Assembly (NCBI GenBank): GCA_902628195.1
Contig: CACOLY010000001.1
Span: forward strand, 62,001 to 126,000
Source: an uncultured Pelagibacteraceae bacterium
GTDB taxonomy: Bacteria; Pseudomonadota; Alphaproteobacteria; Pelagibacterales; Pelagibacteraceae
Direction of reading: 5' to 3'
DNA: 64,000 bases
This document shows, in pieces, positions 3,377 through 6,065 of this stretch; position 1 is the first letter of the stretch, and each line of letters starts with the position of its first letter. Under the pieces are notes generated by a model. That model did not search any database. It saw only the letters and a program-made list of their open reading frames with translations, and was not told the origin of the DNA. Made by a program: the position numbers and the translations under genes.

Positions 3377-4342
3377 ATGGCTGTTTATACAAATATAAAT
3401 AAAAAAGATCTTTCTGTTATTAATAGTAAATTTAAAACCCAGCAATTTATAAGCTTCAAAGGTATCAAACAAGGTATAGAAAATACAAATTATTTACTAA
3501 AGTCAAAAAATGAAAAGTTTATTTTAACAATTTTTGAAAAACGAGTTTCAAAAAAGGAAATACCTTTTTTTATGAAATTGATGGATCAATTAAACAATTT
3601 AAGTTTTAATTGTCCAAAACCACTAAGAAACTCAAAGGGAAACTATATATTTAAATTAAAAAATAAAACCGCATGTATTGTCTCTTTTCTTAAAGGAAAA
3701 GATAAAAAAACTCTAAACTTAAAAAATTGCTATGATGTTGGAAAAACGATAGCTACTATGCACTCCGCTACTAAAAAAATAAAACTTCATAGAAAAAACT
3801 CAATGGGAGTTAAAAATTTAAATCCATTATTAAATAGTATAAAATTTAAATCAAAAAAATTTACAAATATTGAAAAGTTTTTAAGAATTAATTTTATAAA
3901 TATTAAAAAGAAATGGCCGAAAAAATTACCTAATGGAATAATTCATGGAGATCTTTTTATAGACAATATTTTTTTTAAAAATAACAAACTATCTGGTGTA
4001 ATTGACTTTTATTTTGCAGCCAATGATTTCTATATGTACGAGATTGCTATATGTGTAAATGCTTTGTGTTTTGATAAAAATAAAACCAAATTTAGTATTA
4101 ATAAAAATAAAGTTAAAAATTTGATAAGAGGATATGAAAGTATTAAAAAAATCTCACAAAGAGAAAAAAAATCATTAAATATTTTATGTCGTGGAGCAGC
4201 GATGAGGTACTTTCTAACTAGACTCTATGATTATTCAAATACTCCAAAAACAGCTTTGATAAAAGTCAAAGATCCAAGAGAATATTATCAAAAATTAGTA
4301 ATACATAATAATTTAAAAACTTATAAAGATTATTTAATTTAA
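3377..4342 (+). CDS. thrB: Homoserine kinase (APH-fold, ThrB type)
   Basis: GIKQGIENTNYLL and IIHGDLFIDNIFF, IDFYFA motifs of the aminoglycoside-phosphotransferase fold homoserine kinase. Confidence 0.88.
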   Translation: MAVYTNINKKDLSVINSKFKTQQFISFKGIKQGIENTNYLLKSKNEKFILTIFEKRVSKKEIPFFMKLMDQLNNLSFNCPKPLRNSKGNYIFKLKNKTACIVSFLKGKDKKTLNLKNCYDVGKTIATMHSATKKIKLHRKNSMGVKNLNPLLNSIKFKSKKFTNIEKFLRINFINIKKKWPKKLPNGIIHGDLFIDNIFFKNNKLSGVIDFYFAANDFYMYEIAICVNALCFDKNKTKFSINKNKVKNLIRGYESIKKISQREKKSLNILCRGAAMRYFLTRLYDYSNTPKTALIKVKDPREYYQKLVIHNNLKTYKDYLI

Positions 4343-4764
4343 TGATCAAAATATATACAGACGGTTCATGTATTGGAAATCCAGGTAAAGGTGGTTGGGC
4401 AGCAATTATATTAAATGGTGAAAAAAAAACTGAAATAAAAGGAAGTAAAAAAGATACCACAAATAATCAAATGGAATTATTAGCACCTATAAAAGCTCTT
4501 AAAGAAATTCCAAAGGGTAGCAAAGTTGAAATTTATACAGACTCTAAATATGTAAAATCTGGAATAACAGAATGGATACATAATTGGAAAAAAAATGGAT
4601 GGAAAACCACAAACAAAAAAGATGTTAGTAATAAAGAACTTTGGACAGAATTAGATCTACTAAATAGTGAATTTGAAATAAGTTGGAATTGGGTAAAAGC
4701 ACATTCAACTGATAAATTAAATAATGAAGTAGATTTACTTGCTAAAAAGGCTACAAATTTATAA
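4342..4764 (+). CDS. rnhA: Ribonuclease HI
   Basis: IYTDGSCIGNPGKGGWA, NNQMELLA, YTDSKYVKSGI, WVKAHS motifs. Confidence 0.97.
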   Translation: MIKIYTDGSCIGNPGKGGWAAIILNGEKKTEIKGSKKDTTNNQMELLAPIKALKEIPKGSKVEIYTDSKYVKSGITEWIHNWKKNGWKTTNKKDVSNKELWTELDLLNSEFEISWNWVKAHSTDKLNNEVDLLAKKATNL

Positions 4765-4765
4765 T

Positions 4766-4877
4766 TGGAGCACCTGGCAACAGAACGCCCCTTACCAAAG
4801 TTATCCGTTGTCCCCAGTCAACTTCCAAAAGGAAGTTGCATTGAAGTTACATTGAAGTCAGGAAACAACGGAAATAA
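4766..4877. ncRNA. Candidate structured non-coding element (function unknown)
   Basis: GC-richer than flanks; outer stem CCGTTGT (4805-4811)/ACAACGG (4865-4871), perfect 8-bp hairpin CAACTTCC-AAAA-GGAAGTTG (4819-4838), and direct repeat CATTGAAGT (4839-4847 and 4850-4858). Confidence 0.4.
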
Positions 4878-4880
4878 GTT

Positions 4881-5054
4881 TTACTTCTTATTTTTAATTT
4901 TAAATCCTTGAGACTCTAATATTTTAATCAAATTAATTTTCATTTGGTCCCTAGATGTTTTTTGGTCACCTATTTTTTCAAAAAATATTGGTTTCAAACC
5001 TCTATCTTTTTTTGATTTAAAATAGTTTTTTACAGATTGTATCTTAAGTTTCAT
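4881..5054 (-). CDS. Small hypothetical basic protein (57 aa, not in supplied ORF track)
   Basis: Minus-strand ORF MKLKIQSVKNYFKSKKDRGLKPIFFEKIGDQKTSRDQMKINLIKILESQGFKIKNKK* preceded by a strong Shine-Dalgarno (AAAGGAGGCATATG). Confidence 0.7.
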   Translation of the reverse strand: MKLKIQSVKNYFKSKKDRGLKPIFFEKIGDQKTSRDQMKINLIKILESQGFKIKNKK

Positions 5055-5173
5055 ATGCCTCCTTTAGCGTTTTGTTTAAAGTCCTAGCAAGTAGAGTTTT
5101 TTCTAAATCAAGACTAAGTTAATAATAACAAATATACAAAATTTTGCCATTATTATTTAGTATAATAAAATTG

Positions 5174-5198
5174 TTAAAGTTAATTTTCAAAACTTTAA
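5174..5198. promoter_or_regulatory. Inverted repeat upstream of ORF 5211
   Basis: TTAAAGTT (5174-5181), 9-nt loop, AACTTTAA (5191-5198): perfect 8-bp inverted repeat 12 nt before the start codon. Confidence 0.35.
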
Positions 5199-5210
5199 TA
5201 ACCCCAAACT

Positions 5211-5543
5211 ATGCAACAACTAGAACTATTTGATTTCAGGAGAGATATTCTCTATGAAAAAGATAATCAAATCGCTCATTTTTATGATGTACTAACCGAA
5301 AGTGAAAATGGGATAAGTTATGCTGAACATATAGATCCTAAAAAAGAATTTTCTATATGTGGTATGGATTATGAAGAGTATGTTGATGTCAAGAAGAAAT
5401 ACTTAAAAGATTTAACTTATGACCAAATACTTAACTACTTAGGAAAATTTAAAAAAGAGGAAAGATTAGAAAAATACAAAATCTTACTTAAATTTAGAAA
5501 CATACCTTTTGATGCAGATTTATTCACTTGGAATAGCAATTAA
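5211..5543 (+). CDS. Hypothetical protein (110 aa)
   Basis: Complete ORF MQQLELFDFRRDILYEKDNQ..., intergenic on both sides, no recognised domain. Confidence 0.7.
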   Translation: MQQLELFDFRRDILYEKDNQIAHFYDVLTESENGISYAEHIDPKKEFSICGMDYEEYVDVKKKYLKDLTYDQILNYLGKFKKEERLEKYKILLKFRNIPFDADLFTWNSN

Positions 5544-5552
5544 TTAAATTAT

Positions 5553-5573
5553 AGGGAGAAACAGAACCTCCCT
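5553..5573. terminator. Possible terminator hairpin between convergent genes
   Basis: AGGGAG-AAACAGAAC-CTCCCT hairpin between ORF 5211 (+) and the peroxiredoxin gene (-); no strong U-tract. Confidence 0.35.
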
Positions 5574-5576
5574 AAC

Positions 5577-6065
5577 TTATAATAAGTTATTTAATAAATT
5601 TTCTGCTGAAGTTAAACCACATTCTTTAGTCTCTTTTTCAACATGGATATTAACAACTGCGAAATTTTCAATCACCATTAAATAACGATTTGATCTAATT
5701 CCCATTCCTTTTGCATTACGATCAACTTCTGCTCCAATTGCTTTCGTAAATAATAAATATGGGTCAGATAACATTTTAATTTTATCTCTAGTATTATTAA
5801 TCTCTCCCCAGCCATTCATTACATAAGGATCATTCACTGATAAACAAAATATATTTTCTATTCCTTTTGCTTTTATTTTATCTGCATTTGCCACAAATCC
5901 AGGAAGATGAAGTTTGGAGCAAGTTGATGTAAATGCACCAGGCAAACCAAACAAAACAATTTTACCATTACCTATGATTTCACTTAATTTATTTTTTTGG
6001 GGCTCTCCACCAACAAGATGAAAAATTTCTGTATCTGGAATTTTATCTTTTATTTTTAGTTTCAT
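5577..6065 (-). CDS. Peroxiredoxin (Prx5/glutaredoxin-type, AhpC/TSA superfamily)
   Basis: GKIVLFGLPGAFTSTCSKLHLPGF catalytic-Cys motif. Confidence 0.93.
   Translation of the reverse strand: MKLKIKDKIPDTEIFHLVGGEPQKNKLSEIIGNGKIVLFGLPGAFTSTCSKLHLPGFVANADKIKAKGIENIFCLSVNDPYVMNGWGEINNTRDKIKMLSDPYLLFTKAIGAEVDRNAKGMGIRSNRYLMVIENFAVVNIHVEKETKECGLTSAENLLNNLL

Follow-up and report, generated by a model that had tools for sequence, protein, structure and literature searches.

Genes for tmRNA are known integration sites (PMC4383910, PMC11915505), and small cassettes that are bounded by fragments of tRNA genes and accumulate beside the tRNA gene have been described in Ca. Actinomarinales (PMC7771536) and Ca. 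Methylopumilus (PMC10872708), those of the latter ranging from 330 bp to 42 kb. Among integrons, cassette arrays that have no integrase are called CALINs (PMC11389934), and a study of the hypervariable regions of SAR11 found no attC sites in them (PMC2217521). Here, we describe a 112-nt block (4766–4877) in the window, a 64,000-nt stretch of the genome of an uncultured Pelagibacteraceae bacterium. The block is very probably the left junction (attL) of a 0.8-kb mobile gene cassette beside rnhA and not a new RNA. The initial annotation had offered three guesses, an attachment scar, a member of a repeat family, and a small RNA; the first holds, the second holds in the sense that attachment sites recur, and the third does not.

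The kind of element to which this cassette belongs is already known, both from elements that target tmRNA and tRNA genes and from the tRNA-fragment cassettes of other streamlined marine bacteria. Like the additive flexible genomic islands of Actinomarinales and Methylopumilus (PMC7771536, PMC10872708), the SAR11 elements combine a streamlined aquatic host, small cassettes, direct repeats taken from a gene end, and variable content, but their repeat is the 3' end of a permuted tmRNA gene, and they have a second fixed site at rnhA/prx, candidate arm-type repeats, and rare integrase-bearing parents. As in the islands catalogued by Islander (PMC4383910), which are of the tyrosine-integrase type, a tmRNA gene serves as attB and a displaced fragment lies at the far end; however, most SAR11 elements span about 0.2–7.5 kb, carry one to a few cargo genes, and have no integrase, and an integrase-based search would therefore miss them. 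Tycheposons (described in PMC10872708 and PMC11389934) are comparable in having a tyrosine recombinase, integration at tRNA sites, cargo, and marine picoplankton as hosts, but they are 4–200 kb long, anchored at tRNA genes, and equipped with their own recombinase, whereas the cassette in the window is 0.78 kb long with a tmRNA-derived core and no recombinase; judged by tRNA anchor, own tyrosine recombinase, and a length of at least 4 kb, it is not a tycheposon. Integrons and CALINs (PMC11389934) are similar in their small cassettes, short recombination sites, and frequent absence of the integrase, presumably acting in trans, but the SAR11 sites are derived from tmRNA, with a double-stranded core and, in many elements, putative arms. 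No account of tmRNA-derived cassettes in SAR11 was found in the literature, subscription papers and preprints lying outside the search, and the tmRNA-derived, integrase-poor arrays of SAR11 with their second site at rnhA/prx appear, provisionally, to be undescribed.

A copied tmRNA 3' end between rnhA and prx

A direct check of the sequence located all of the features reported for the block: a closing stem (CCGTTGT, 4805–4811, with ACAACGG, 4865–4871), a perfect 8-bp inner hairpin (CAACTTCC-AAAA-GGAAGTTG, 4819–4838), a direct repeat with an 11-nt period (CATTGAAGT at 4839 and 4850), and a possible alternative pairing of CTGGCAAC (4774–4781) with GTTG (4807–4810) and CCAG (4814–4817). The block had also been said to encode no evident ORF, and none longer than 48 aa in the ORF list spans it. 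The most significant feature had been overlooked: the 25 nt at 4767–4791 on the plus strand, GGAGCACCTGGCAACAGAACGCCCC, duplicate the 3' terminus of the tmRNA gene, matching that of relatives at 24 of 25 positions, and the true unit, at about 4779–5567, exceeds the 112-nt block. In alphaproteobacteria, the tmRNA gene is permuted and in two pieces. The same letters form the 3' end of the tmRNA genes detected by ARAGORN and Rfam RF01849 in L002, L004, L005, L013, L020, and L028, and the host's real tmRNA gene is on a different contig (G000:C7), the site in the window being adjacent to rnhA rather than at the tmRNA gene itself. No Rfam family was found at the gathering threshold in the whole window, and a low-threshold scan for a known RNA over the block, a check proposed in the initial annotation, returned as its sole match a fragmentary, sub-threshold alpha_tmRNA 3' end (12.1 bits) ending at 4794. 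The search against SAR11 genomes that had been proposed with it, run on 200 relatives, gave matches in 102 of 201 genomes, every one within the genus of the window and mostly over the first 30 nt only. At least one core is present in 345 of 399 genomes of the genus, among them each of the 57 with a completeness of at least 90%, and an exact core 16-mer is present in 320 of 356; a reversed control pattern gave 0 among the matches listed for the genus genomes. Cores in L041, L042, and L046 are preceded by a longer tmRNA remnant (CGGGGTAT) and lie near SOD or acetolactate-synthase-like genes, which suggests a third insertion locus.

The core begins 2 nt past the stop codon of rnhA (RNase H; 4342–4764, plus strand), and the host flank on the right is prx (peroxiredoxin-like; 5577–6065, minus strand). 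A core preceded by rnhA is also found in L014, L016–L018, L022, L039, and L040, and in 10 of 60 fetched rnhA loci, which were ranked by rnhA similarity and are not a random sample, it lies directly behind rnhA with prx about 34 bp from the rnhA stop. These are empty attB sites of close relatives (L096, L098, L118, and L124, among others), reading GGCAACAGAAC|TGCCC between rnhA and prx or, spelled out for L096, GGGGCACCTGGC-AACAGAAC-TGCCCTACC. In 10 other loci of the 60, the core reads AACAGAAC-GCCCC and is followed by extra DNA, which makes it an attL; that of the window reads GGAGCACCTGGC-AACAGAAC-GCCCC (4767–4791), with the AACAGAAC|GCCCC part at 4779–4791. Where a site is filled, the right half of the host site, TGCCC or CTCCC, is restored at the distal attR, as AACAGAAC-TGCCCTACTTAGATTAG in L104, AACAGAAC-TGCCATACTAATTATAATAAATC in L121, and GGGGGA-AACAGAAT-TGCCCTACTAATTATAATAAATC in L039. 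The window has a degenerate attR, GGGAGAAACAGAACCTCCC (GGGAG-A-AACAGAAC-CTCCC; 5554–5572, plus strand), which matches the attR found at the corresponding place before prx in L039, L104, L121, and L122; it is laid out as the left half of the element, AACAGAAC, and the right half of the host, and it differs from the canonical core. The 8-bp block AACAGAAC (4779–4786, plus strand) is common to attB, attL, and attR, and the switching of flanks around it between empty and filled sites is a signature of site-specific recombination, from which we infer that strands are exchanged inside AACAGAAC. From crossover block to crossover block, the spacing of attL and attR delimits an integrated cassette of 781 bp (4787–5567, plus strand).

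This cassette carries a 57-aa ORF (4881–5054, minus strand) and a divergently oriented 110-aa ORF (5211–5543, plus strand). Some 45 fetched loci have a homologue of the former, 57–100% identical, next to the 110-aa ORF, and the 110-aa ORF itself is assigned to the cargo by the association of its homologues with cores: among those of at least 84% identity, 21 of 35 have a core in the same orientation no more than 500 bp upstream, eight of them with exactly 105 bp from the core to the matched part, and among those of 62–74% identity, 0 of 44 have a core in the fetched DNA. The 110-aa protein has no known family or fold in the libraries used: it had no match in Pfam, PHROG, or PADLOC and no convincing sequence match in the PDB, and no structure matched its confident AlphaFold model (pLDDT 88) with an E of 0.001 or lower. 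A related cassette lies at the tmRNA gene in G022 (110-aa ORF, 95%; 57-aa ORF, 91%), and the cassette type therefore occurs at two different sites. In L187 (G383:C9), an integrase element at a tRNA-Met site carries a type I restriction-modification-like gene set and, after it, a 68% identical homologue of the 110-aa ORF. The leader of the 57-aa ORF (5042–5124, minus strand), which overlaps its ribosome-binding site, resembles a SAM-II riboswitch; a search of 216 bases matched it to RF00521 with 25.1 bits (E 5.7e-4), short of the cut-off of 36 bits. Across an alignment of 23 loci, the leader hardly varies, and it is better conserved than the 57-aa ORF that follows. If the leader is a SAM-II switch, SAM would be sensed inside a mobile cassette type that is often near methyltransferase genes.

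Putative arm-type repeats, integrases, and arrays

The direct repeat of the block has counterparts behind many other cores. When 164 distinct core sites were scanned for an exact 8-mer recurring at 11 or 12 nt, in 20-nt bins to +400, the repeat started at +40 to +79 in 46 of them (34 at +40 to +59 and 12 at +60 to +79), compared with 0–3 sites in all other bins and 0–1 sites at control spacings of 9–10 and 13–17 nt. The word differs by family, and the roughly 20 different words include CATTGAAGT/TCAATGAAGT, ACACGAAGT, GACTATGTA, TAGGTCGT, GACGACTA, ACCGCAGT, and TGGCGTCA. In the window, the two putative arm-type repeats CATTGAAGT are at 4839–4847 and 4850–4858 on the plus strand, +47 and +58 after the core. 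Judging from their sequence, the repeats look like putative arm-binding sites for an integrase clade of differing specificity.

Only L298 and L300 have a tyrosine integrase adjoining the att site; the element of the window and most of its relatives have none. The enzyme belongs to a second integrase family (about 320 aa; 21 of 399 genomes), and in G241 (L298) and G322 (L300) its gene begins some 100 bp past the tmRNA core; by this search, an integrase lies at a tmRNA core in only about 2 of 399 genomes. RKHRHY-type residues are conserved in the integrases. In L298, another full core lies 6.2 kb from the tmRNA gene, and a full-length or restored tmRNA gene with a displaced 3' fragment is seen here and in the arrays L033, L035, and L050. 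As for the packaging or replication genes that mark phage satellites, L298 encodes a phage-type primase (phrog_1156), and the element of the window encodes nothing of the kind. Between the core and the integrase of L300, TGGCGTCA occurs twice at 11-nt spacing; the L298 integrase has no exact 11-nt repeat before its start, and its arms are imperfect. Relatives of these integrases at tRNA-Met, tRNA-Gly, and tRNA-Asn genes have the same att-repeat-int order, and eight tRNA-site or related elements with the same integrase family have an exact 11–12-nt repeat 30–48 nt before int, the words at tRNA-site elements being TGTCACA, GGTCGCA, GGGCACA, TGATCACA, and TGGGATGCA.

No integrase with the family-A arms of the window (CATTGAAGT) was found in the 399 genomes. 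The only PF00589 protein of the host, a candidate for the recombinase, is unlinked to the core; in 24 genomes there is usually one such protein, of ~325 aa, likewise unlinked to cores. The non-Xer integrases of G056, G237, G364, G425, and G383 are at other sites and have no core. The whole element had no match in phage records, an attP-like pattern search of IMG/VR gave only chance matches in GC-rich contigs, and neither source yielded a phage or viral contig that carries an attP. The IMG/VR core matches considered as phage attP were only phage-encoded tmRNA genes. IMG/VR contigs L053–L060, marine phage contigs with ribonucleotide reductase genes nearby, carry complete permuted alpha-type tmRNA genes that end in the same 3' sequence and encode the tag ADENLALAA. 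No close homologue of the tmRNA-site integrase was found among the viruses of IMG/VR, and its identity to phage integrases did not exceed about 32% among the matches listed.

We are highly confident that the 112-nt block represents the attL junction of an integrative cassette that is small and has no integrase. For its insertion, we propose the following mechanism. A tyrosine integrase would bind the repeats as arm-type sites, together with the core, and strand exchange would take place within AACAGAAC. A circular form of the cassette, with the attP junction GGGNN..AACAGAACGCCCC, would insert at either of two places, the 3' end of the tmRNA gene or the tmRNA-like core beside rnhA. An integrase-bearing element or a phage would provide the enzyme in trans to cassettes without an integrase gene, or these cassettes would be stranded. 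Successive insertions would build arrays. As its attR and one arm repeat are decayed or missing, the copy in the window may now be fixed.

Same-orientation arrays reach nine sites (L234; six in L195), and the spacing of 0.2–2 kb in arrays of 5–9 sites, with one or a few ORFs each, is also what would be expected if the tmRNA-derived sites acted like attC/attI and a dedicated integrase shuffled single-gene cassettes as in integrons. Repeated insertion at one att site can, however, also make arrays, the core by eye has no attC-type RYYYAAC/GTTRRRY pairs, and double-stranded arm-type repeats suit phage-type integrases better, and we consider an integron-like system rather unlikely.

Folding and covariation of the block

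A further reading is that the block is a structured small RNA or a cis-regulatory RNA with two mutually exclusive folds. It folds moderately better than dinucleotide shuffles on either strand (plus strand, z −2.5, 3/200; minus strand, z −3.6, 0/200; as DNA, z −2.9), but an alignment of 14 related family-A elements, on which covariation was tested, speaks against this reading. Only 3 of 14 rows, which share the cassette sequence that follows, retain the outermost C-G pair of the closing stem, and its other three G-C pairs are retained in 6, 4, and 7 rows; overall, cells are paired in 64.6% of cases, as in shuffles (62.4%). In the alternative fold, roughly a third of cells fail to pair and no two-sided, compensatory change is seen, and the RNAalifold consensus keeps only the tmRNA 3' hairpin. 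The pairing letters for two exclusive folds exist, as had been claimed, but an RNA with competing folds does not follow from them, the stem being lost in most rows. Two-sided changes were found in 11 cells, mostly of the inner hairpin, a number that exceeds 499 of 500 shuffles and is reached by one; relatedness can yield such changes without structure, and a weak DNA dyad there is possible. This dyad (4819–4838, no strand assigned), perfect over 8 bp with its AAAA loop and placed between the core and the arm repeats, is imperfect in relatives. The covariance check proposed for the small RNA gave it no support beyond this weak signal, and covarying pairs across relatives, as expected of a structured RNA family, are otherwise absent from the 14 elements. 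No promoter-like site was found in the block, and no Rfam family save the tmRNA 3' end, and we regard an RNA of this kind as very improbable.

It is hardly credible that the block is a transposon-type or REP/MITE-like repeat or a terminator hairpin common to rnhA and tmRNA, as the many short copies per genome and the GC-rich hairpin of the core might suggest, given the precise attB/attL/attR exchange at AACAGAAC at fixed sites with no random-target duplication, the integrase-bearing versions at the same core, and the absence of any T-run terminator call at the block.

A cassette system in SAR11

With the block read as the attL of a mobile cassette, the main interest lies in the genus-wide cassette system behind it. 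Inspected elements, from which the defence examples were chosen and for which no enrichment is claimed, carry type I restriction-modification genes (L034, L216, and L220), type II methyltransferases (L040, L038, L211, and L229), a PDC-S11 protein (L035), a NERD-UvrD protein (L203), and an MzaA-like protein with an HSP90-type ATPase (L193), as well as many small ORFs, several with a signal-peptide-like start. It is possible, though we put it forward only tentatively, that SAR11 maintains an integron-like gene-cassette economy on the tmRNA 3' end, in which several tyrosine integrases of different arm specificity would share the core and mobilize in trans those cassettes that lack an integrase, thereby spreading anti-phage genes and genes for small secreted proteins among the arrays at tmRNA and rnhA/prx. 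The arm repeats make the pairing of integrases with elements testable. SAR11 are among the most abundant bacteria of the sea, and a mark of 16–25 nt that delimits mobile cassettes would allow these cassettes, including defence genes, to be listed in any SAR11 genome and shows the points at which new genes enter.
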